IMG/VR virus record: IMGVR_UViG_3300045825_000109
Span: 1-41,814 of that record
Length of the DNA stretch: 41,814 bases
Strand: one strand, 5' to 3'
Source of the DNA: a virus
In this document: piece after piece, positions 4,167-38,717 of the stretch
Position numbering within the stretch: the stretch's first letter is position 1
How the letters are laid out: the number at the start of each line of letters is the position of its first letter
Translations under genes and position numbers: made by a program
Notes under the pieces: model-generated
What the model was told of the DNA's origin: nothing
The model's database searches: none
The model's input: the letters and a program-made list of their open reading frames with translations, nothing else

Positions 4167-4320
4167 CTTAAGTGTTACGAAATACTCGATTCCAGTATTT
4201 CTCTTTATATTTCTATAAAGAACAGACTATATCTTCACCCTTTCGGGGCTTCCCACTTCGAACTTTCTTAAGTCCTACGTCTTTCGACTAGTCGTTGAAC
4301 CTTCATCATACCTAATAGGA

Positions 4321-5247
4321 TTAGATGCTTGGCTGCTGATTGTCTGTTAGTCCAAGTTGCTTTTCTACAGATCTTAATGTTTCCAATAAGCTGTCTGGAA
4401 CTTGGCTCTTGAGAGATTCCAGCAATTCGAGAAGATTTTTATATTTCATTTCTGAAATATGTGGCACAATGGATGTATTTCTTTGATGCAGCTTTCCATG
4501 ACAACTATCGCATACAGTTAATAGATTATTAAAATCATGTACCCGAATATCATTATCATCAAAAAGCCAATAACTAATTATATGGTGTATATTTAAATTA
4601 TATTCCGACGAGCATATCTCACATTTAGAAGTACTGCTTTTATACTTTTTAGATATTCTATCCCATTCTCGGGTATAATTAGTATATCTTGGTGTCCCAG
4701 TATAGAAGTGATTCCGCTCTCCAGTTGAATAAAAGGATTTACGTTCCTCTGTAGTTCTTAAATAAATATTATCACTAGTTAGATTACTAAAATCATTATC
4801 TAGCATACCTATCTCTGATCCTTCTGGTAAATAACATTCATGTACCAGTTCCCACAATACTTGGTGTGCTCGTACTTGATAGGAGTCTTTATTAGCACTA
4901 GGGTGTCCCCACATACTAACATTGAATCTGATAGACTTACCAGCTATATTTATTATAGGGTTGGATAATTTTTCTAGGGTTTGTTCTACTAACCAGTCGT
5001 CTTCCCAATATCTGCCCCCTATTAGTCCCCATTTAATCATCCATTTTCTAGATAATGTATTAGATACTTTAGGGTAGGGTATTACTGCCCCACAATAGTC
5101 TATAAATTTTTTAGCTACTATTCTACTAGATGTTACTACTCCTAATACTTTAAGTACTTCTTGTTGATTATACCCTTCAACTTCTATTAATTGCTTAATA
5201 TAATCTTTACCACCAACTTTAGCTACTATTTCTTCAATATTATACAT
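4321..5247 (-). CDS. Intron-encoded HNH homing endonuclease
   Basis: 308 aa, wholly inside the intron. The C-terminal part has a zinc-supported HNH centre: CEIC (209-212), IHHII (220-224), N240/N241, CDSCH (246-250) and H254. An upstream segment (residues ~105-170, with MLDNDFSNLT and SDNIYLRTTEERKS) resembles a second HNH_3-like or DNA-contact unit that has lost its first catalytic His. The family nicks or cleaves intronless alleles to spread the intron. The N-terminal ~60 residues look helical and may bind DNA. The gene has its own sigma70-like promoter at 5271-5299, as expected for an intron ORF that should not be read during splicing. Confidence 0.92.
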   Translation of the reverse strand: MYNIEEIVAKVGGKDYIKQLIEVEGYNQQEVLKVLGVVTSSRIVAKKFIDYCGAVIPYPKVSNTLSRKWMIKWGLIGGRYWEDDWLVEQTLEKLSNPIINIAGKSIRFNVSMWGHPSANKDSYQVRAHQVLWELVHECYLPEGSEIGMLDNDFSNLTSDNIYLRTTEERKSFYSTGERNHFYTGTPRYTNYTREWDRISKKYKSSTSKCEICSSEYNLNIHHIISYWLFDDNDIRVHDFNNLLTVCDSCHGKLHQRNTSIVPHISEMKYKNLLELLESLKSQVPDSLLETLRSVEKQLGLTDNQQPSI

Positions 5248-7312: not shown

Positions 7313-8157
7313 CCTAAGTACTCCTTTAAAATATTATCAATAACTTTAGTATTCTCTTCTCCAATAGCTTCATCACAGTGGGTAAGTAGGTCCATTAACT
7401 GATAGTTAAGTAGGATTAAATCTTTACACTTATTTAATGATTGAATATATTTATATTTACTACTAATTGGTAGAGACGCTGCAATATCAAAAGCACTCCC
7501 ATATTCCTTAATTAGGTCATGGGCACGTTTGGGTCCAACTCCTTCCACCCCTTTTACATTATCACCAGTATCCCCCATTAGACACTTAATACTAATATGG
7601 TCTTCAGGATCATAGTCATATTGTCCATGCCAGTTATCTGCTCTAGTCTCTTTTCTAGTAACATAAGAGAATCTAGATATATGGTCATTAACTAGTAAAT
7701 CCCAGTCTTTATCTGAGGAGATTAACCAAATATCTGTAATGCTTGGGTAATGGCGTATCTTTTTAACTATATAAGCAGCTATATCATCTGCTTCTACTTT
7801 ATTAAATTTAACAACTGGGTACTCTGTAGTACTAAGTTGGAGTAAGGTATTATTAAATTCTTGAAAGAACTCTTCAAATTCTTGTGTTTCTTCTGGGGTT
7901 TGATCTTTATATTTTTCCTCTCTATTAGCTTTATACTCAGGATATAGTGCTTTGCGGTAAGAACTGCTTCCTTGGTCACAAGCAATAATAACTTTAGATG
8001 CTTTATAAGATCTTTTTAGTGAGTCTACTACTTTAATGTAATCATCAACAAATTGAACTGATTTAGCGTGCTTATACCTGAAGGCTAGATTAAGAGAATC
8101 CACTATCATTAAAGTGCTTTCATTTGTTTCTGCCATATATTTAAAATCTTTACTCAT
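7309..8157 (-). CDS. 5'-3' exonuclease / flap endonuclease (T5 D15-like)
   Basis: 282 aa. N-terminal metal-binding motif MIVDSLNLAFR, then ACDQGSSSYRKALYPEYKANR (arch region), the acidic EADDIAAYI and SSDKDWDLL motifs, and the helix-hairpin-helix segment GDTGDNVKGVEGVGPKRA. The family removes RNA primers and 5' flaps during replication and repair. Gene order (resolvase, D15-like, dUTPase) parallels T5. The start at 8157 overlaps the preceding gene stop by 4 bases. Confidence 0.95.
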   Translation of the reverse strand: MSKDFKYMAETNESTLMIVDSLNLAFRYKHAKSVQFVDDYIKVVDSLKRSYKASKVIIACDQGSSSYRKALYPEYKANREEKYKDQTPEETQEFEEFFQEFNNTLLQLSTTEYPVVKFNKVEADDIAAYIVKKIRHYPSITDIWLISSDKDWDLLVNDHISRFSYVTRKETRADNWHGQYDYDPEDHISIKCLMGDTGDNVKGVEGVGPKRAHDLIKEYGSAFDIAASLPISSKYKYIQSLNKCKDLILLNYQLMDLLTHCDEAIGEENTKVIDNILKEYLG

Positions 8158-21810: not shown

Positions 21811-22557
21811 TTATACCTTTAAAAAATCTATTAGATTTGTAATAATTGTTATTCCATATTCATCAGCTTTTTGTCGCTTAGAACTGTTCTTGTTATCTTC
21901 GTCAACCAGGTAGTCCGTTGTTTTTGTTATATTTTCAACTACGCTAAAGCCAGCATTTGTAATTTGAATTGTTGCTTCTGCTTTGGTTTTAAAAGATTTT
22001 AGTTTTCCAGTTATACATATTGTTTTTACATCTGTACTGCTAGAACTACTAATCTGCTTAAAGTTGAAGGGAAGGAACTCTTTCAACTCTTGATACTCAT
22101 TACTAACCCACTCCATGAGATTAGCTGTTGCTTTTTCACCGAGCCCTGCTTTCTTACATACTTCTGGAGTTATTTCATCTATACTACTTACTACACTTGC
22201 TATTTTAGCACTTGCCGTACCCCCTATTAAAGTGATACTAAAACTTGCTAATACTGTTGCTAGTGATGCAGCTTTTGCTCTTTCTATTTCATCCAGTAAC
22301 TTATTGGTTACTTTTTCACTGCCTAGGGTAGCTATAGTAGTATCCCTATCTAAATAAAAGAGTTCAGTAAGATCAGAGAGATTTAATTTTAAAATTGTCT
22401 TTTCTCCAAATCCTTTAATACCTAACGTCTTTGCAAAATGTTCTATTTTTTTATTCAACTGTGCTGAACACGCAAGATTACGGCAGAATAATTGATCGTT
22501 CACTTTTTCAAGTGGGTAATCACAGCAAGGGCATTTTGTAGGAATTTGTATTTTCAT
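21811..22557 (-). CDS. ligB: NAD-dependent DNA ligase, C-terminal subunit (zinc finger, HhH, BRCT)
   Basis: 248 aa. It begins at the ligase zinc finger (CPCCDYPL ... CRNLACSA). A helix-hairpin-helix region follows (IKGFGEKTILKL; GTASAKIASV; GLGEKATANLM), then a BRCT domain (KTICITGKLKSFKTKAEATI). No adenylation motif is present, because it is supplied by the separate upstream subunit. T5 has the same split. It is first after promoter 22583-22611. Confidence 0.9.
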   Translation of the reverse strand: MKIQIPTKCPCCDYPLEKVNDQLFCRNLACSAQLNKKIEHFAKTLGIKGFGEKTILKLNLSDLTELFYLDRDTTIATLGSEKVTNKLLDEIERAKAASLATVLASFSITLIGGTASAKIASVVSSIDEITPEVCKKAGLGEKATANLMEWVSNEYQELKEFLPFNFKQISSSSSTDVKTICITGKLKSFKTKAEATIQITNAGFSVVENITKTTDYLVDEDNKNSSKRQKADEYGITIITNLIDFLKV

Positions 22558-22828: not shown

Positions 22829-23815
22829 CTACTCCACTTTATGAGTTATAGTAGGAATGATTTCACCTGAGCGAATAATATGAACCATATCGCCAATTTG
22901 AATATCTAACATCTCAATAAACCCGGGGTTATTTAGAGTTGCTCTACTAATAGTAGCATCTCCCAGCATTGTAGGTTCTAATATTGCTACTGGAGTAACT
23001 CTACCTGTTTTACCTACCTGCCAAAGAACATCTAATAGTTTAGTGACTGCACCTTCAGGACGCTCTTTCTTAGCATAAGCACCTTTAGGAAACTGAGAAG
23101 TATATCCTAACTCGTTAAATCTGCTATTATTATTGCAACGAAACACAATACCATCAGTAGGATAAACATCTTCTAATCCAGAGTCTTTAATTGTATTAAA
23201 TCCCTGAAGTTTAAGAGCCTTCATATCTTCTTCAAACGTATCTGTAATATTAGGCTGTACGTTGTATGCAAAGAATTCTACTGCTCTAGTATTAAACTCA
23301 GAGGCATCTTTAAGATTCAATGCGCCCGCAGCGTAGTTGCGAGCGTTAGGTATATATTTGGGAGCAGCTATCTCCCCGGTTACCTGTACTATGCCAGGAA
23401 TAGTAATAGACTGGGGGATACGTGAATTACCGATGAATTTATTAGTAATCTCAGTACCTTCGCGACCATCTCCCCTACTAAGAACCCTACTAAGGCTCCC
23501 ATCAATATATAAGATAGAGATAGCCGCACCATCCAACTTAGGGGAGTATGATATATCCTTTTCAGCTGCAAGAGGATTTTGTTTACCTTCATCCGCATAA
23601 AATTTCTGAAGAGAATACATTGGATAATAGTGTTGTTGGATATGTTCATGCTGTACTGCTCCTACCACATTATAATTAGAGGATTCTGCTAGACGGTCAA
23701 AGGCATTATCACTTAAGATAGGGTTCCCTTGGTAATATTGTCTAGCACACTCGTTTAGGTACACATGTAAGGGATTGTTCATAGGTTTTGAATAACTTGT
23801 CAAATTTAATATCAT
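22829..23815 (-). CDS. ligA: NAD-dependent DNA ligase, adenylation/OB subunit
   Basis: 328 aa. The nucleotidyltransferase motif SPKLDGAAISIL supplies the active-site lysine (~residue 93); GDGREGTEIT and TGEIAAP are further core motifs. The segment YPTDGIVFRCN (motif IV) and an OB-fold start (QVGKTGRVTPVAILEP) complete the catalytic half, which ends near IRSGEIIPTI. Zinc finger, HhH and BRCT are encoded by ligB. Met-12 (23782) is a plausible alternative start; neither has a clear ribosome binding site, and the first 74 bases overlap the preceding gene. Confidence 0.9.
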   Translation of the reverse strand: MILNLTSYSKPMNNPLHVYLNECARQYYQGNPILSDNAFDRLAESSNYNVVGAVQHEHIQQHYYPMYSLQKFYADEGKQNPLAAEKDISYSPKLDGAAISILYIDGSLSRVLSRGDGREGTEITNKFIGNSRIPQSITIPGIVQVTGEIAAPKYIPNARNYAAGALNLKDASEFNTRAVEFFAYNVQPNITDTFEEDMKALKLQGFNTIKDSGLEDVYPTDGIVFRCNNNSRFNELGYTSQFPKGAYAKKERPEGAVTKLLDVLWQVGKTGRVTPVAILEPTMLGDATISRATLNNPGFIEMLDIQIGDMVHIIRSGEIIPTITHKVE

Positions 23816-24614: not shown

Positions 24615-25324
24615 ACGTAAGGGTTACATACGTAAGGTTTACGTATGTAATCTAATTCTGATGGTTGGGCGCAAGGTAAAATTTCCTGTGCTGGACTAGG
24701 ATGCGCTATAGTCCCTATATCGTTAAATAGAACAGGCCAGGAGTTACGAAACCTAGCTAATAGGGGGCATATTATTTGACGTATTTGTGGATGAGCACTG
24801 TCAGCAGTACGTAGTTCAAAAATCTTACGCCATTCGCGTACATTTGCTGTTACTACAATCTCAGTCTTTAGACTATTCGGCAGCACCGAGCGAGCCTCTT
24901 GAGCTTTCGAGCCAACAGCAAGCAACTCCATGTAGCGAAGTTCCGACGTCATACAGGCTTGCTTCCAGTATTCGTACTCCACAGGACGTTCAATATAAAA
25001 GAACGGCTCTATTACCGTAATCTCAGAGCCAAACTTTCCTTTACCATAGTTACAATATCTTGTGGACTCTTGTGTAAAGGAACAGATACGGTGTCGAATC
25101 ATTTCATGCGTAATTCCTCTATCTGTGACAAACTTAACTGTAATGACTCCATGCTCAAGGGTGGATTCATGCTTGAGTGATTTGATGTGTGAAATAATTT
25201 TTTCATCTGAGCCTTCTTCTATTCGATCTTCTGATTTATATGCCGTACGAATTGCCACTTCCATAAGCTTGGTCATATTCGGGGTATGAGATAGAATCTC
25301 AAAAGACGGTTGTACTATTTTCAT
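24611..25324 (-). CDS. thyX: FAD-dependent thymidylate synthase ThyX
   Basis: Start 25324 (MKIVQPSFEIL) follows AGGAAT and overlaps the upstream stop as ATGA; the longer frame from 25375 is coding sequence of that neighbour. The flavin-dependent signature RHRICSFTQESTRY (RHRxxSxxxxSxR class, with Cys-Ser at the variable site) is complete. SLKTEIVVTANVREWRKIFELR and HPQIRQI are the other conserved blocks. It makes dTMP from dUMP, using the product of the dUTPase encoded in the same block. ~237 aa, normal length. Confidence 0.96.
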   Translation of the reverse strand: MKIVQPSFEILSHTPNMTKLMEVAIRTAYKSEDRIEEGSDEKIISHIKSLKHESTLEHGVITVKFVTDRGITHEMIRHRICSFTQESTRYCNYGKGKFGSEITVIEPFFYIERPVEYEYWKQACMTSELRYMELLAVGSKAQEARSVLPNSLKTEIVVTANVREWRKIFELRTADSAHPQIRQIICPLLARFRNSWPVLFNDIGTIAHPSPAQEILPCAQPSELDYIRKPYVCNPYV

Positions 25325-25923
25325 ATTGAAATTCCTATATCTCTTAATCCCTGTAAGGAGGCAAGTTCCCACCAAGGTTGGTATGCAAATTGTTGTTGAT
25401 TTTCATGACTTAACCAAATACGGTATACGTTCTCTCCCTCTTGTTTAAACTCTGCTTCTATACTAGCTAAAGAGCCATACTTTACAGAGTATACTAATTC
25501 TTTAATAGCGAAAGTATTACGAACTGATTCATCTGGAATTAGGGTAGGCTTATTATACTCTAAGGAGGTATTCCTCTTAGGAATACCGTACTTTTCTAGT
25601 ATAGAGTTAATAAAGGTTGATCCTCTAAAAGTACTCTTACTTATAGTATCAATAGGGGATCCTTGTAGATACTCGGTTACAATAAAAGAAATCTCATCAG
25701 GAGATGCAGGTTTACCTCGTTTATCTGCCCTTAGTTTAGAGTCCCTTTCCTTCTTCTCTTTATATGCTTCTAATAGCTTATCTAGTCTAGATACATTATA
25801 AGAAATATTAAGAATTTCACAAGCTGCTTTCTTAGTGCCTTTATTTTCAAGATGCGTAATAACCCTCTCATATGCAGAGTCTGTTAAGTTCTCTAATTCT
25901 CTATCCGCCTTTGATCTAGCCAT
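25321..25923 (-). CDS. Hypothetical protein with HTH-like N-terminus (200 aa)
   Basis: Residues ~18-55 (YERVITHLENKGTKKAACEILNISYNVSRL) resemble a helix-turn-helix, and a basic linker (RADKRGKPASP) follows, so DNA binding is plausible. The rest (NKPTLIPDESVRNTFAIKEL; AFAYQPWWEL-type end) is not recognised. It is the first gene of the thyX operon, directly after a promoter that overlaps an 11-bp palindrome. It could be a regulator of that operon, which is inference from position. Confidence 0.7.
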   Translation of the reverse strand: MARSKADRELENLTDSAYERVITHLENKGTKKAACEILNISYNVSRLDKLLEAYKEKKERDSKLRADKRGKPASPDEISFIVTEYLQGSPIDTISKSTFRGSTFINSILEKYGIPKRNTSLEYNKPTLIPDESVRNTFAIKELVYSVKYGSLASIEAEFKQEGENVYRIWLSHENQQQFAYQPWWELASLQGLRDIGISI

Positions 25924-25975: not shown

Positions 25976-26195
25976 GTTAATTTTTATTCTGCTCCAAAGG
26001 GTTTTCCTGCTAGAACATCCTTTATAAATACTCATCGACTCCCGTGTAGCTGTAGGCAGTACCACTTGTGTGGTCGGGTCTTGCTTGGCCTTGGTGGTCT
26101 GCGAGTGTATCTATGTCAGACTAGCAATTCTTCACTTGTTCCTGTGACTCTGCAAGCTGGGTGCGGAGGGATTCAATCAGTCCACATTCTTCTGG

Positions 26196-26264
26196 TGTAT
26201 AAGCGCCCGAAGCGTGATACTCTGTTGATAAATTTATACGCGCCCGCTCAACTTAACGTTAGGT
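26196..26264 (-). repeat. attC-like site, last cassette (one end degenerate)
   Basis: On the - strand it begins with ACCTAACGTTAAGTTGAGCG, a typical R''-L'' half, at the stop codon of the 81-aa cassette gene. The inverted half is weak (GGGCGCTTATAC instead of a GTTRRRY box), so it may be inactive. Confidence 0.6.
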
Positions 26265-26504
26265 ACCTTCATGCTGCACGCACCCGAAGTCTTGAAGCGT
26301 TTTCAGTTCTGCGTAGTAATCGCTCCCGTCCTGCACGAATGCAAGCTTTCCAGCGTGCTCCGTCTTCAGCATTCTCTTGTCGTAGTCGATCCATTCCGTA
26401 GCGTTCCAGAATTGCAATACGGCCTTGCACTTGCCAGTTCCGGGAAATTCTACGTAGTCGCTCTCTGGCTTCTCCCAGTGCTTGCAGGTCTTGCATCGTT
26501 CCAC
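26259..26504 (-). CDS. Cassette-encoded small zinc-finger-like protein (81 aa)
   Basis: GTG start at 26504, preceded by GGGAG. The protein opens MERCKTCKHWEKP and has GKCKAVLQF in the middle and FGCVQHE at the end: four cysteines in the pattern CxxC...C...C, likely one zinc site. Short proteins with this CKTCKHW...GCVQ layout are common as hypothetical cassette or phage genes. The stop lies inside the attC-like site. Confidence 0.75.
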   Translation of the reverse strand: MERCKTCKHWEKPESDYVEFPGTGKCKAVLQFWNATEWIDYDKRMLKTEHAGKLAFVQDGSDYYAELKTLQDFGCVQHEGT

Positions 26505-26539
26505 GATCTTCTCCCTGTAAAAATATGCGGCGGTACGGC

Positions 26540-26594
26540 ACCTAACCCGCCGTTCGAGTCGGACGCGATGAAGCCGCTCAACTCTACGTTAGTC
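26540..26594 (-). repeat. Textbook attC site
   Basis: Inverted halves ACCTAACCCGCCGTTCGAG and GCTCAACTCTACGTTAGTC (+ strand) flank a ~16-nt centre. In gene orientation (- strand) it ends with the recombination box GTTAGGT. The stop codon of the 81-aa gene at 26589-26834 lies at its start, exactly the layout of a mobile gene cassette. Confidence 0.85.
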
Positions 26595-26834
26595 ATCAAT
26601 GCCCATACACATCATTCCATTTTTCTGCATCGCAAGACGTGTCAGCAATCCATGAAAAAGTTTAGGTGCAAAATTCTCAATGCAGAGATGTTGGCATCCC
26701 TTTTGTCTCATCTCCGTAAGTTGTGCCGTGAGTTCACATATCGCTCGAATCTCGTCAGATGTGATGTCTAATCTAACATTCAACACGGACTGCTCCGAAG
26801 CGGGGTTCGATTCTTGGGTTTGCTGTGTGTTCAT
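26589..26834 (-). CDS. Cassette-encoded hypothetical protein (81 aa)
   Basis: ATG 26834 to a TGA inside the attC. The protein is helical and charged, with an N-terminal Gln/Ser-rich tail (MNTQQTQESNPASEQ) and a core LDITSDEIRAICELTAQLTE. Two cysteines (CQHLC) may be functional. No domain recognised. Base composition is richer in G+C than the phage backbone. Confidence 0.7.
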   Translation of the reverse strand: MNTQQTQESNPASEQSVLNVRLDITSDEIRAICELTAQLTEMRQKGCQHLCIENFAPKLFHGLLTRLAMQKNGMMCMGIDD

Positions 26835-26838
26835 AGTT

Positions 26839-27114
26839 TCAATCCTCGTTCGTAGTGTTCAGTTGCGGCTTGCCCCTTAGCTCCACGTTAGGTGGCAGCA
26901 GTTGATCGCATTTGTTATATCTAGGCAAGAGTGGTGTTGCATCCAAAAATGCAAGCCACCCGTGATTTATGTTATTGCTTATAGTTGCGCGTTTCAGCCA
27001 AACCCATCCAATAATTTCGATTGTAGGCGTTGAGCTATGAGTCATACTTGTTCCGGTAAGTCGCGCCAAGCGCACCGGCCACCACAAGAAAACAGTTTTA
27101 ATACGAGCGCCCAT
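26839..27114 (-). CDS. Cassette ORF reading through an attC-like half site (91 aa)
   Basis: The N-terminal part (VFLWWPVRLARLTGTS) is Trp/Leu-rich; the last ~20 residues (LPPNVELRGKPQ...) are translated from a CCTAACGTGGAGCTAAGG attC-like half at 26868-26893. The native gene probably ended near there. It stops 4 bases before the next ATG. No family recognised, and it may not be a functional protein. Confidence 0.45.
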   Translation of the reverse strand: MGARIKTVFLWWPVRLARLTGTSMTHSSTPTIEIIGWVWLKRATISNNINHGWLAFLDATPLLPRYNKCDQLLPPNVELRGKPQLNTTNED

Positions 27115-27134
27115 ATTTACTCCGTAAAAGTGCC

Positions 27135-27195
27135 GTCTAACCCATCATTCAAGCGGGAATACGCGAAGCGCATCCCCTTAATTCAGTCGTTAGCC
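27135..27195 (-). repeat. Complete attC site downstream of the DUF4326 gene
   Basis: On the - strand: GGCTAACGACTGAATTAAGG, a centre with the self-complementary ATGCGCTTCGCGTAT, then CGCTTGAATGATGGGTTAGAC. The two halves are inverted repeats with an unpaired base, and the terminal box GTTAGAC fits GTTRRRY. The upstream gene's TGA lies in the first half (GCT AAC GAC TGA). Confidence 0.85.
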
Positions 27196-27470
27196 ACCTC
27201 AATTAGCACATCACCATGACATGCTTTGGGCGAGCAGAAGCAAATCAAATCTTTCCCGGCAAGTTCACGTTTGGCTTCTTCTATCAAGAGCGGCTGCGAA
27301 AGTAACCATTCCTTGTATTTCGCAATCACAAGTTCACGAGTACCGTACTCGCTCATAGTAAATGGATTGCCCCACTTGCTTGGCCTGCCAATGTAAACTG
27401 CACCTTTCGGCATCCCATCTCGATATTTATTTAGTACCTTTGGCATCAGGCATTTCTCAAAAGTGCTCAT
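27183..27470 (-). CDS. DUF4326-family protein
   Basis: 95 aa, preceded by AGGAGAACTT. Conserved blocks VYIGRPSKWGNPF and DLICFCSPKACHGDVL identify the DUF4326 family, small proteins frequent in phages and mobile DNA with conserved Cys/His residues (CFCSPKACH), of unknown activity. Here it is carried as a cassette: its stop codon is inside a complete attC. Confidence 0.85.
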   Translation of the reverse strand: MSTFEKCLMPKVLNKYRDGMPKGAVYIGRPSKWGNPFTMSEYGTRELVIAKYKEWLLSQPLLIEEAKRELAGKDLICFCSPKACHGDVLIEVAND

Positions 27471-27497
27471 AAGTTCTCCTATTTAATTAAAGTTCGT

Positions 27498-27722
27498 TCA
27501 GCTCCTCAACTCTTCGCTAGTGTTGTCGAACATTGTCCGGTACGCTTCACTTTGTGGTGCGTTCCAATCGACAAATACATCTCCAAGCGAAACAAATATT
27601 GGCCGCGCCAATCCCATGCGTTGCGCCAATACCGTGGGGCATAAAACGCCAATTACGTTTCGAGTCTTCTTTCCATTGCGACCTGTCGATGTGTAAGATA
27701 CTTCAAACGGTTCCATAGCCAC
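27498..27722 (-). CDS. Cassette-encoded hypothetical protein (74 aa)
   Basis: GTG 27722 or ATG 27716 start. A small beta-rich protein (FEVSYTSTGRNGKKTRNVIG; PIFVSLGDVFVDWN). Its 3' end CTAGCGAAGAGTTGAGGAGC resembles a decayed attC half, and its 5' end abuts the GTTAGGG box at 27724-27730. No domain recognised. Confidence 0.65.
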   Translation of the reverse strand: MAMEPFEVSYTSTGRNGKKTRNVIGVLCPTVLAQRMGLARPIFVSLGDVFVDWNAPQSEAYRTMFDNTSEELRS

Positions 27723-27737
27723 CCCCTAACCCTACGT

Positions 27738-28064
27738 TCAACTTTCGTTCCACTTCGGTTGTGTAGCAGCTAAAATAGATAATGCACTATTGGTATAGTC
27801 GTTTATGTCACTCACCATCTCTGGGGAGAACTTATCTCCCCAAACTGTATTCAGTACGAATAATATTTCTGCGCTTTTTACCAAAGTCTCACGTAACATC
27901 ACCACTTGTTCCTGTGACTCTGCGAGCTGGGTGCGTACTCGTTCCAGTTCTGGCCGCAGTACTTCATCTGAATCTCGGTACGCTTCCGCGAGTTCTGATT
28001 CCAACTCGGCTATCTTTTTCATAGCAAGTTCAAACTGTACATAATCTATTTGATCGTTCATCAT
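27738..28064 (-). CDS. Coiled-coil cassette protein, intact copy of a triplicated family (108 aa)
   Basis: MMNDQIDYVQFELAMKKIAE starts a heptad-rich helix containing VRTQLAESQEQVVMLRE, followed by the conserved NTVWGDKFSPEM and TNSALSILAATQ end. Two further copies of the family follow upstream, both with frameshifts, so this is the only uninterrupted one. The stop lies in an attC-like end (AGTTGAACGTAGGGTTAGG). Coiled-coil dimerisation is likely; function unknown. Confidence 0.75.
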   Translation of the reverse strand: MMNDQIDYVQFELAMKKIAELESELAEAYRDSDEVLRPELERVRTQLAESQEQVVMLRETLVKSAEILFVLNTVWGDKFSPEMVSDINDYTNSALSILAATQPKWNES

Positions 28065-28074
28065 TCACTCTTTC

Positions 28075-28245
28075 TTAAACAAAATACGGAATATCGACAT
28101 ATTGGCATTTAGGACAGCACATCACCCCTATACGCCCTACATAGATATCAGCATCGCAATTTGATGCATAGTTATCTAGTCCGTTTATCCTGAATTCCTC
28201 AAGTTCATCACAGTCATTATCTTCTTTTGCGTTTGGACATTTCAT
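28075..28245 (-). CDS. Small Cys-rich protein (56 aa)
   Basis: ATG 28245 to TAA 28075, too short for usual ORF cut-offs. It begins MKCPNAKEDNDCDELEEF and ends with VMCCPKCQYVDIPYFV, giving a CPKC knuckle plus further cysteines, so a zinc ribbon is likely. GAGGTG lies just upstream. The start overlaps the end of the frameshifted copy 2. Confidence 0.65.
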   Translation of the reverse strand: MKCPNAKEDNDCDELEEFRINGLDNYASNCDADIYVGRIGVMCCPKCQYVDIPYFV

Positions 28246-28628
28246 CATTCACCTCTTTCGGTTGTGCAGCAACTAAAATAGATAATGCACTATTGGTATG
28301 GTTGTTTATGTTCCTCACTGTATTCGGAGAGAACTTATCACCCCAGACTATATTCAATACAGTCAATATTGTTATCCCGCAAAGCCTCCCGTAACATCAC
28401 CATTTGTTCCTGCGACTCTGCAAGCTGGGTGCGGAGTTCAGCGAGTTCTGACCTCAATTTGGTTATTGTGTTTTTGTCCACTGTGTACAATCCTTTATAG
28501 TCTTCCAACTCTTCATTCACTGAAGATTCAATAGCTACCGCGAACGATAAGACACATTCAAATAATTCTTGATCCGGTTTTGAGTTATTCACGGCTAGCC
28601 ATAATTGAAGTTTCTCTTTATTGGTCAT
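28217..28628 (-). pseudogene. Coiled-coil cassette family, copy 2, frameshifted
   Basis: From ATG 28628 the frame covers the coil with LRTQLAESQEQMVMLREAL and then terminates at 28338. In the neighbouring frame the family's C-terminal half is intact: ITILTVLNIVWGDKFSPNTV ... TNSALSILVAAQ, ending at 28217. Comparison with copy 3 (TACGCGGGATAAC) suggests loss of a CG dinucleotide in GCGGGATAAC near 28376. It is an inactivated gene, a sequencing error, or two separate short proteins. Confidence 0.6.
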
Positions 28629-29128
28629 CTTGATCTCCCTTTCTTAATTCTGCGGTGGCGGTGAGCGTTGATAATACACTATTAGTATGGTCATTTATGC
28701 CCCTCACTGTATTCGGAGAATACTTATCACCCCAAACTGTATTTAATACAGTCAATATTGTTATCCCGCGTATCAAATCATTCCGCAACATCGCAACATG
28801 CTCCTGTGACTCTGCAAGCTCTGCTTCAGCCTTTTTAACCCGACTGTTAGCGTCGTCAATACACGAATCTTTCCACTCCGAAAGCTGGGTGCGGAGTTCT
28901 GACTCACGCTCAGTGAATATTACTAATTTACTTTCCAGCTTGTTTTGCCTTGTTACCTAGTGCAATAAACTGGGTGCGGAGGGATTCATTTTCACATTCC
29001 AGATCAATCTGATTTTTAGTAATAACGCATTCAAGTTTATCGTTCTTTTCGGAGAGTTTCTCTTCCAATTCGGCTATCTTTTTACTGGCAAGTTCAAACT
29101 GTGCATAATCTATTTGGTCGTTCATCAT
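28618..29128 (-). pseudogene. Coiled-coil cassette family, copy 3, frameshifted
   Basis: It opens MMNDQIDYAQFELASKKIAE, nearly the same as the intact copy 1, and reaches a stop at 28928. The other frame then continues a long coil (RQNKLESKLVIFTERESELR ... AELAESQEHVAMLR) into ITILTVLNTVWGDKYSPNTV and ends at 28618. One indel near 28945 separates the halves. Its last bases overlap the ATG of copy 2, indicating tandem duplication of the whole unit. Confidence 0.6.
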
Positions 29129-29354
29129 TCACCCTTTCTTAAAGATACAGCCATATCATACAATAATTTCTCGGAGCATTTAAATCCATGATGCTTTCCA
29201 CAATCAAATCCATAGTCTTTGAAAGTAGATGGCTCATTCACTTTATTGGTTAGCTGAATTATTACATTCTCCAGCACTTCTGCCTGCACTTCTCGCTTCC
29301 ACTTCTCGGCTTGCTTTGCGGTGTCAGTGTTTCGTAATTTTTAGATAGTTTCAT
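29125..29354 (-). pseudogene. Frameshifted small helical protein gene
   Basis: ATG 29354 gives MKLSKNYET and then an early stop, while the adjoining frame encodes DTAKQAEKWKREVQAEVLEN ... SEKLLYDMAVSLRKGE and ends at 29125 with an ATGA-type junction to copy 3. The span is 230 bases, one short of 77 codons, so one base is missing in the GAAACACTGACACC region. Confidence 0.55.
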
Positions 29355-29532
29355 GTCTAACGCGATTTTTAATTGATAATAGTACCTCTGTTGCGGTACA
29401 CTCTATTTGCAGAATTTCACCCTCTGTTATTAGTACAGGTATTTCAAAATACATACTATCTCCTGAAATTGATATTCCAGTTAGCATCGCGGGTTGCTTG
29501 AATATTCTTCCTATAATCACAGTTTTTCTCAT
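29341..29532 (-). CDS. Small hypothetical protein (63 aa)
   Basis: GGAAG precedes the ATG at 29532. The product is beta-rich (KTVIIGRIFKQPAMLTGISI; IPVLITEGEILQIECTATEV). No motif recognised. It overlaps the broken gene downstream by 14 bases. The 125 bases upstream hold the degenerate attC at 29603-29671 and nothing else I can name. Confidence 0.6.
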   Translation of the reverse strand: MRKTVIIGRIFKQPAMLTGISISGDSMYFEIPVLITEGEILQIECTATEVLLSIKNRVRHETI

Positions 29533-29602
29533 AGTCTAACTTCCTTCCATACGGATTTATAGGTTTTGTTTTGTTTTCTATAATACGTCGTGCACCCCCT
29601 TA

Positions 29603-29671
29603 TCATGTCCCGGCGGTGAAGAGGGACTGCCGCGAAACAGCCCGCGTCAGCCCCTCAACTCTACGTTATAA
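29603..29671 (-). repeat. attC-like site with intact R'' half
   Basis: In gene orientation it starts TTATAACGTAGAGTTGAGGG at the stop of the 66-aa gene, has a hairpin-forming centre (GCGGGCTGTTTCGCGG) and a decayed far end (CACCGCCGGGACAT rather than GTTRRRY). Confidence 0.6.
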
Positions 29672-29866
29672 ATCGACAAAGTTATATGACTCGGCATCAA
29701 TTACATCTGCCGCCTTTAGTACTTTATAGCGCATTTTATTAATTTGCATTGTGAGAGGACTTGATGATATTCCCCACTCTTTTGCACACACCGCTATATC
29801 ATCAAATGTAATTTCTCCATCAGTTTCGTTTGATTCCCACCTAGATTTAAATTCTTGCTTATTCAT
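29666..29866 (-). CDS. Small HTH-like protein (66 aa), first cassette gene
   Basis: MNKQEFKSRWESNETDGEIT, then IAVCAKEWGISSSPLTMQIN resembling a helix-turn-helix. GGGAGG lies upstream. The TAA is at the start of the attC-like site. It is the first ORF after the GTTAGGT boundary of the array, so it would be the newest cassette in classical integron logic. Confidence 0.65.
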   Translation of the reverse strand: MNKQEFKSRWESNETDGEITFDDIAVCAKEWGISSSPLTMQINKMRYKVLKAADVIDAESYNFVDL

Positions 29867-29931
29867 TTTTTACCTCCCTCGACTATTTTTAGCGTTACCA
29901 GACTCATCTCCGTCTCCTATAAAATCGCATA

Positions 29932-29960
29932 ACCTAACGTTCGAGCAAGAAATCCCTTAG
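29932..29960 (-). repeat. Right boundary of the cassette array (GTTAGGT box, attI/attC-like half)
   Basis: On the - strand TTGCTCGAACGTTAGGT ends with a perfect GTTRRRY recombination box, after which the first cassette begins. Immediately upstream is AT-rich phage sequence with the terminator of the 120-aa gene. Only one half-site is evident. Confidence 0.6.
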
Positions 29961-30042: not shown

Positions 30043-30405
30043 TTACTTAGCTTGTAATACTGTAATAAAGTATGTTGCTGCTTTACCAGTTAGTTTATCA
30101 AGAATCTCATTATCTACTGGAGCGCCTTTTGCTTCAATTTCTGCACGTAGTGCGTTAATTTGGGACTCTTTACTTACACGTTTAGGAGCATCTCCTTCCT
30201 TCTTGGAAGTATCTTTACCTCCTGAAGCGGCCTCTTTCTTAACGTAAACCTGAGCCTGTACAAGAATCATACGAACACCATTAGGTGATTGTTCCATTTC
30301 CTCCGCAATCTCCTTGATAATTTCTGTTGAAGTCTCGGGAGTAGGGTCAGCGGCTTTGTATGCTGCGATAACTTGTGCTTTTTGTTCTTCTGTCCATGTT
30401 GCCAT
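30043..30405 (-). CDS. Conserved-type phage protein (120 aa)
   Basis: MATWTEEQKAQVIAAYKAAD and the SPNGVRMILVQAQVYVKKEA segment form an HTH-like N-terminal domain. A Lys-rich linker and a helical end (VDNEILDKLTGKAATYF) follow. The pattern occurs in uncharacterised proteins of several large phages and suggests DNA binding. AAGGATAA-type ribosome binding site upstream. Confidence 0.78.
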   Translation of the reverse strand: MATWTEEQKAQVIAAYKAADPTPETSTEIIKEIAEEMEQSPNGVRMILVQAQVYVKKEAASGGKDTSKKEGDAPKRVSKESQINALRAEIEAKGAPVDNEILDKLTGKAATYFITVLQAK

Positions 30406-30907: not shown

Positions 30908-31332
30908 ATTAGTAGAGTGTCCTGTGTGGCTAGCAACTAGCGCAAGTTTCTAAGATCCGTTTATTAGCGGCTTAACTATTCATCACAAATAGATTACTTA
31001 GAAGGATGTAAGTCCCTTTACAGGTAGGGCGATTGATTAGATCACTTTCTCAACAACACTCTTAGAAACATACTAACCCTGGTTGCGCTACCAGTAACCC
31101 GTGGAAGGATATAGTCCGGAACATCTCCACATATATTTATTAAGTGGCAGTTAGTATGTTTTTAAGAGGAGACTGTATTGGATTATAAGGAACAGTCCCG
31201 AAACCTCGGCTAGATGTTCTAGGCAGCCATAGCGTAAACGCCGTGGTTTGCATTTATTATTTTTGATTTTTAAGTCTTTCTTGACTATTCTTCGGCTTAA
31301 CTTTTCAATCCAATCGAAGCCTGGTCGAGCCC
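30908..31332 (-). ncRNA. ssrA: Candidate phage-encoded tmRNA (3' part unresolved)
   Basis: On the - strand a tmRNA-like 5' end GGGCTCGACCAGGCTTCGAT starts at ~31332 and carries the conserved nGGnTTCGA element. 67 nt later comes a resume-codon ORF, 31251-31219: GCA AAC CAC GGC GTT TAC GCT ATG GCT GCC TAG = ANHGVYAMAA, matching the AN...YA(L/M)AA form of bacterial degradation tags. The last Ala codons and stop lie in a small hairpin (GGCT/AGCC), as in known tmRNAs. Stems and interleaved pairings follow (31059-31077 with 31150-31168; 30950-30958 with 30997-31007). I could not find a T-arm or CCA end, so the 3' boundary is only the next tRNA. A sigma70-like TTGGAC-N18-TTTAAT lies just upstream. 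Confidence 0.6.
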
Positions 31333-31370
31333 GCGTCTTGAATCAGTCCATTAAACCATCTACGAATTCT

Positions 31371-37403: not shown

Positions 37404-38717
37404 TTAACCCATATTCTCACTCAATCGGATATACTCAAGTACAGCTTCTGAGAAGCCGGATACTGTTTCGTATACTCCGCTGTTAATACCGTTCTCATAG
37501 GCTGCTACATTTACTACGTAACCTTTACCTTTTGGATTAGGTAATCGAGTATAAGACTGTTCATCAGTAAAGACGATTACCCTATCATATGAGCCTTTGT
37601 TTACCTTATCTATAGCACTTCCTGTATCAGTACCACCATGCGGTTGAGAACACTGTAGTTGCTCCCGCAATGCAAATCCATGTCTTGGAGAGACTCGTAT
37701 ACACTCATCACTAAATGTATAGATCTCTACTTCTTCACAGATTTCACGACAAAGCATAGCTAGTGCGGCAGCTGCATCAAATCTGTCCAGTTCTGATTTA
37801 GCACTAACAGTAGTCCCAAACATAGAACCGGATACGTCTACTAAAAGTACTGTTTTACCAGGGATTTTAGGAGCTTTAGCTAGAGAACGTAACATCATTT
37901 CTTCTAGCATATCTTCCAACTGAGGGACATGTTTGGCGGCTGCAACATAGCGAAATGGCAAAACCATATCTATATTAACAATATCCATAGCATAGGCACG
38001 TATTTTGCTCTCATTAACCCCTGCTTCGGTCATATTACGCAGATTACGCAGGAACGCAAGAGCACCTAGCTTATTTTCGTCCATAAGACGAGAGAAAGTT
38101 TCTAGTTTATCTGCTCCATTAGAGAGGGCAACTTCCCAAGTATCGGGAGTTACTAACTCCTTTGCCGCGATACGTTTAAATAACTCCGCCCTAGCTATAT
38201 CAGTTGGCTTAGGATGACACATAAACATAACATCACGTACTGAAACAGCTGAGTTATTTTTATCCCACTTAGCGAGCTGATACTCATTGAATCGATTAAA
38301 TGCCTTAGCTAATCCATTTTTAACTTGATTAGAGATTGCACTCTTACCATCTTTCCAGTAAATTGAAAGAAATTCTCCCATTTCATCTGGACGTTGAATA
38401 ACTGCATCCAGCATTTCTGCACGCATACGCCCTGTGCGAGCTAATTCACGTATTAGGTATAAAGGTACATGGCGAAGTTTGTACTCTGTTCGCGCAGATT
38501 GTGCCAAATTAGAGACGAACGTGGGGTCAGCGACTGCGACCAAGTTCTTCAGGATCTCAGCAGAAGACTCGCCATCAATATAAAATTGATTCTCCCACAA
38601 CATATGAGCTAGGGTCATGCGTTTGAGTTTAGATTCCGTACTAATAGTACGTACTGGTAAACTGACATGATTAGTACCTTGCATTTTTTCTTTAAGACGC
38701 TGATTAAGACTTGACAT
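37404..38717 (-). CDS. rsr: Ro60-family TROVE/vWA RNA-binding protein (Rsr-like)
   Basis: 437 aa. Residues ~1-280 form a TROVE (HEAT-repeat ring) domain: YKLRHVPLYLIRELARTG, the Ro signature VSVRDVMFMCHPKP (158-171) and GALAFLRNLRNMTEAG (218-233). Residues ~287-435 form a von Willebrand A domain with an intact MIDAS motif VDVSGSM (293-299). Ro proteins hold Y RNAs on the ring's outside and thread misfolded RNA ends through the hole; in bacteria they assist RNA decay or maturation. Here the gene sits inside the tRNA cluster with structured elements on both sides (37281-37370; 38751-38995), transcribed from the promoter at 39142-39170. It is shorter than cellular Ro (~530 aa). Confidence 0.93.
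   Translation of the reverse strand: MSSLNQRLKEKMQGTNHVSLPVRTISTESKLKRMTLAHMLWENQFYIDGESSAEILKNLVAVADPTFVSNLAQSARTEYKLRHVPLYLIRELARTGRMRAEMLDAVIQRPDEMGEFLSIYWKDGKSAISNQVKNGLAKAFNRFNEYQLAKWDKNNSAVSVRDVMFMCHPKPTDIARAELFKRIAAKELVTPDTWEVALSNGADKLETFSRLMDENKLGALAFLRNLRNMTEAGVNESKIRAYAMDIVNIDMVLPFRYVAAAKHVPQLEDMLEEMMLRSLAKAPKIPGKTVLLVDVSGSMFGTTVSAKSELDRFDAAAALAMLCREICEEVEIYTFSDECIRVSPRHGFALREQLQCSQPHGGTDTGSAIDKVNKGSYDRVIVFTDEQSYTRLPNPKGKGYVVNVAAYENGINSGVYETVSGFSEAVLEYIRLSENMG

Follow-up and report, generated by a model that had tools for sequence, protein, structure and literature searches.

How does a phage come to carry a row of integron gene cassettes, and whose cassettes are they? Integrons have been studied as bacterial gene-capture devices. 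The window considered here is the whole of a 41,814-nucleotide viral record (IMGVR_UViG_3300045825_000109), and the locus is an island of approximate boundaries (25976-29945, minus strand) between the genes p200 (25321-25923) and p120 (30043-30405). The first-pass annotation took the island for an integron-type cassette array without an integrase, inserted in a phage and probably gained from a host chromosomal integron. The first part is borne out by a covariance model of attC and by all 15 syntenic phages; the second is not. The island is quite probably a decayed integrase-free attC cluster (CALIN) from a phage-specific integron lineage with inverted cassettes, not something newly taken from a host integron. 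CALINs in phages have already been published, and are active with IntI1 (Qi 2023, PMC9892861).

Are the sites attC at all? They were sought with a covariance model, R1, built on the R''/R' and L''/L' stems with three bulged bases; it replaced a home-made attC scorer that did no better than shuffled sequence. R1 was trained on 24 attC-like sites from public viral and bacterial contigs, found by DNA pattern, none from the window. As the window's own attC variants supplied those patterns, R1 is tied to that attC family, though not to the window sequence itself. Its stems hold 62 two-sided covarying cells against 23.7 in shuffled alignments (0/500 shuffles), and it matched the aadA1 attC of plasmid R100 at 44.1 bits on the minus strand against 6.5, so R1 recognises attC in general. 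Run on the window with filters off, it found three sites, and beyond them only noise (best E 1.3). Both complete sites annotated earlier are real to the base: 27135-27195 (58.5 bits, E 1.3e-13, matched on the minus strand, which carries the extrahelical G) and 26540-26594 (53.1 bits, E 3.8e-12), the latter a variant, with about 5 nt deleted, of attC in the phage contigs L043 and L045 (91% and 88%). The third, at 29603-29671 (38.1 bits, E 5e-8), is damaged; one half is 96% identical over 49 nt to an intact attC of L043, and the site appears to combine two attC variants, with the join lying in the hairpin and not at the crossover base. All three have their top strand on plus.

The several partial sites of the first reading are half-sites, also with their top strand on plus. 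One, near 26264 (26191-26270), follows the ORF at 26259-26504 and has lost its other half; it is 82% identical over 68 nt to an intact attC region, L043:1977-2044. Like the damaged site at 29671 it matches L043 attC; four others were recognised by reading only: near 26894 (26840-26898, CCTTAGCTCCAC-GTTAGGT), 27515 (27490-27522, with the R box mutated to GCTAGTG), 27733 (27724-27750, CCCTAACCCTACGTTCAAC) and 29938 (29929-29950, at the island edge, ACCTAACGTTCGAGC), the last the same as one half of the L043 attC at 2647-2715. One could take all these elements for interspersed palindromic repeats of an ordinary kind, or for terminators, with no role as recombination sites; that is very hard to credit. 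Single attC-like sites do stand beside ordinary bacterial genes (after ilvD in L048, for example); against this, the R and L boxes and the extrahelical bases on the bottom strand are present in the window attC, the stems covary, arrays elsewhere abut attI and intI, and laboratory tests have shown recombination of other phages' attC with IntI1 (PMC9892861). An Rfam scan at gathering thresholds gave no match in the island. Three R1 matches lie within 3.1 kb, and neither an integron integrase nor a tyrosine recombinase (TIGR02249, PF00589) was matched in the 41.8-kb record, which may itself be incomplete; the array is thus a CALIN, and no integrase is visible, as was first observed.

The island is also an insertion. 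In 15/15 related phage contigs retrieved with the p120 gene (30043-30405), p120 lies next to p200, with 56-1161 nt between them and attC absent; in the window this interval measures 4.1 kb. The short gap and the absence of attC in every syntenic phage mark the island as inserted. Relatives found through ThyX were set aside, as they are not syntenic with the island flanks. The clean insertion once placed at 29932-29938 did not materialise: no homologous empty site was found, the relatives share no flanking bases, and 29938 reads as one half of a damaged attC. The base composition does differ as described, at 45-50% GC over 26000-28000 against 30-42% outside, and the island had no blastn match among plasmids.

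The genes are small and all on the minus strand, as first described. The ORF at 26259-26504 (81 aa) has no relatives in phage records by tblastn; that at 26589-26834 (81 aa) takes its stop codon from an attC R box and weakly matches PHROG 13614 (1e-4); two further cassette ORFs lie at 26839-27114 (91 aa) and 27498-27722 (74 aa). The predicted DUF4326 cassette is confirmed at 27183-27470 (95 aa; Pfam PF14216, 6e-25); its stop lies 12 nt inside attC, and it has relatives in 625 phage records, the best at 61%. The ORF at 29666-29866 (66 aa) has a relative in Aeromonas phage phiA047 (63% identity), beside which no attC was found. A 108-aa ORF had no tblastn match in phages, and the Zn-finger proteins once proposed found no support above the Pfam cut-off. 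Part of the island (28000-29300) is not cassette-like: degenerate tandem duplicates of one coiled-coil-like gene (repeat families D1-D6) occupy 27738-29289 on the minus strand. On the far side of the array, 26109-26171 holds a fragment of this repeat, so that copies of the coiled-coil-like gene flank the array (26264-27733) at both ends.

The origin of the cassettes is best approached through their direction. The strands of attC differ: the bottom strand recombines and carries the extrahelical G, and the gene of a normal cassette lies on the top strand. Plasmid R100 served as a strand control; there aadA1 is on plus and intI1 on minus, and R1 matches on the strand of intI1, opposite aadA1. In the window the attC top strands are on plus and every cassette gene is on minus; R1 matches on the genes' own strand, and the cassettes are therefore inverted. 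The sense orientation of ORF to attC, usual though not absolute, is not the one seen here (3/3 antisense). The stop codon lies most often 5 or 12 nt inside attC, and the next start, with a ribosome-binding site, typically 14-41 nt past it. The first-pass annotation was right that stops run into attC (offset -5 or -12), but not that they do so as in real cassettes: they enter at the wrong end of the site.

This layout is in the minority in the bacterial genomes surveyed and common in the phage contigs. Among 251 genomes from two proteobacterial orders, those of two host-type genomes, 82 sites were canonical and 11 inverted, the call being made on whichever ORF ending at attC was longer. Phage contigs (14 from IMG/VR, and phage MW202573) gave 39 inverted and 13 canonical sites by ORF length; with codon usage trained on each contig separately, and the window included, the counts were 41 and 5, with a canonical majority in no contig. 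These polarity calls depend on predicted ORFs, and for 30-40% of sites no decision was reached. The difference between bacterial and phage polarity is significant on sites (Fisher p = 1.6e-14), the sites within a contig not being independent. The attC-bearing contigs are metagenomic and some are proviruses; many carry phage hallmarks (terminase, portal, baseplate, head closure, tail fibre, RecE and an annealing protein, and a transposase of the transposable phage type). The cassettes with known domains, every one of them inverted, include those for Mom, for HTH and AlpA-like regulators, and in the window for DUF4326. As far as sequence can establish it, then, the window holds an inserted attC array of inverted polarity, and that polarity is spread among phages.

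Direct capture from a host chromosomal integron, by a host IntI acting at a secondary site in the phage genome, was the original explanation. It has something to commend it, as genomes of Rhodocyclaceae, Methylococcales and Nitrosomonadales contain attC variants belonging to this family, and 11 bacterial sites do have inverted ORFs. We nevertheless hold it unlikely: host cassettes are predominantly sense (82:11, that is 82 of 93 decided sites), every window cassette is antisense (3/3), as is the pattern in other phages, and the same variants of attC turn up in other phage contigs. When the inverted bacterial cases were checked for prophage context, one locus (L179) was prophage-like and most others resembled ordinary chromosome. 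In L052, an otherwise canonical Nitrosomonadales array contains one inverted Cys-rich small ORF (7333-7527, reverse-complement coordinates), a possible case of phage-to-host cassette transfer. In L048, a Rhodocyclaceae genome, the single attC (4326-4391) lies between ilvD and an integrase plus IS91-like pair.

The L179 locus bears directly on the preferred reading, a phage lineage with reversed cassettes. There, in a prophage-like setting, an inverted array stands ahead of two integrases, one a full integron integrase (TIGR02249, 454.7 bits) and the other of phage type. Relatives of this IntI are encoded by 60 viral contigs. On intI-bearing viral contigs, 105 of 106 R1 matches lie on the intI strand, and in all 103 polarity-tested sites attC is upstream of intI, which is the normal intI-attI-attC geometry. 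The ORFs read toward intI: 55 inverted against 9 canonical by codon usage, 65 against 14 by length. At the first cassette, beside attI, codon usage gave 20 inverted, 3 canonical and 10 undecided; ORF length alone, which is uninformative there in GC-rich contigs, gave 10, 14 and 12, and the count at attI depends on the choice of codon scoring over length. Tail, endolysin, RecE, ParB and phage integrase genes, all of phage type, flank several of these intI loci.

Upstream of intI, 23 phages share a conserved element, AAC-TTAAATTC..CGACACC..TGTCG..TAACTC, and to the left of its AAC lie unrelated cassettes, abutting at the crossover base. A conserved right side with unrelated cassettes on the left is what is predicted of an attI at which insertion is site-specific. 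In a quick maximum-likelihood tree, made without bootstrap, most of the phage IntIs (33, the prophage one included) form a single clade (SH-aLRT 93) placed within bacterial IntIs of the two proteobacterial orders; several phage IntIs fall outside it, on long or weak branches. The phage label requires 5 changes on the tree, against 34 in shuffles.

Cassettes appear to pass between these phages. The Mom cassette of G010, which has no intI, is 87% identical in DNA to the attI-adjacent cassette of the intI-bearing L195; homology between them breaks off at CACCTAAC, the IntI crossover box, past which G010 continues into another attC and L195 into attI. A cassette of G006 and L186 is 90% identical and attC-bounded, with unrelated flanks. 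Within the limits of sequence comparison, a phage attI, a phage IntI clade, cassette ends at the crossover base and cassettes common to different phages are thus all in evidence. The window shares attC variants with phage contigs L043/L047 and L045; with the intI-bearing phages it has short attC matches only, and no ORF in common.

A further perspective makes attC a passive intergenic linker, swapped along with genes by homologous or single-strand-annealing recombination of the phage, IntI playing no role in phages that lack it; a mechanism of this sort has been proposed for T4-type promoter/stem-loop units. The hybrid-looking site at 29671, joined in the hairpin and not at the crossover base, favours such a view and may be a product of homologous or illegitimate recombination and not of IntI. 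Moreover, intI above the family cut-off is missing from 14 attC-bearing contigs, and one contig (G004) encodes RecE, an annealing protein and NinB. The account is improbable all the same, as it meets two difficulties: where phages share a cassette, the homology stops at the IntI crossover base, and 23 phages keep a conserved attI with a variable left side.

The backwards layout in dozens of phages, many with intI, suggests instead that phages run their own version of the gene-swapping system. It is fairly likely that they have an integron lineage in which attI and intI stand at the end of an operon, inverted cassettes are transcribed into intI, and IntI trades small accessory genes. In such a lineage each cassette ORF would be antisense to its own attC; in intact members a phage operon would run through the cassettes and then intI, so that a cassette newly joined at attI would become the final gene ahead of intI. 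The cassettes would be read from the phage's own promoter, not an integron Pc promoter, and IntI would move them during infection or coinfection. The window phage could have received its array from an integron-bearing phage or prophage; the array would then have decayed by deletion, losing attC halves, with the integrase lost or never received. Set against this, the phage-clade intI with its conserved attI is present in 23-33 other phages and absent from the window, which has no ORF common to another array, and its recognisable sites are few (n=3). The link consists of attC similarity (76-96%) and polarity, and the island is called a derivative of the lineage, not a full member.

How does this arrangement compare with known systems? 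In the mobile promoter/stem-loop units of T4-type phages, small genes are likewise exchanged along with a hairpin; those units are not known to have an integrase or an attC fold. Sedentary chromosomal and class 1 integrons have in common with the phage loci the IntI family (TIGR02249), the attC fold, attI beside intI and cassettes ending at G|TTRRRY; they differ in that phage cassette ORFs read toward attI and intI, not away, and intI is co-directional with the cassettes. In Treponema integrons, too, intI and cassettes point one way (PMC3607928), but there it is intI that is turned, reading toward attI, whereas in phages intI-attI-attC is normal and the ORFs are turned. Of the phages of Qi 2023, MW202573 has inverted polarity as in the window (R1 matches at 2069, 2281 and 3670), while TJE1 is canonical and its R1 match weak. 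The main text of PMC9892861 does not remark on inverted polarity, and that paper does not describe a phage IntI clade with inverted cassettes. A literature search confined largely to open-access papers, preprints excluded, turned up no description of phage integrons with inverted cassettes.

If the lineage is real, the traded accessory genes include Mom, methylases, regulators and unknowns; the Mom family gene and the DNA methylases are candidate anti-defence genes. Inversion would keep the phage cassette pool apart from the host pool, as a cassette that crossed from phage to host integron, or from host to phage array, would end up antisense to the promoter there. Reversed cassettes would explain the gain one at a time, and the reordering, of small phage genes of unknown function, and would offer a route of exchange between phages set apart from host integrons by reading direction.

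The rest of the window phage has features of its own. It has at least 17 tRNA genes, and a permuted (two-piece) tmRNA is matched in Rfam at 31219-31367 (minus strand, 53.6 bits), although ARAGORN did not call it. Also on minus, a group I intron (4203-4482, 75.7 bits) overlaps an HNH endonuclease ORF (4321-5247) and adjoins a ribonucleotide reductase ORF; NAD-dependent DNA ligase is encoded as two ORFs, adenylation/OB and BRCT (21811-22557 and 22829-23815), its parts being likewise separate in related phages; and 37404-38717 encodes a TROVE/Ro60-like protein with a vWA domain (Pfam 1.3e-11). The plus-strand ORF at 1-1707, open at the contig start, contains long SALSAIPSIGVSLSGN-type repeats.
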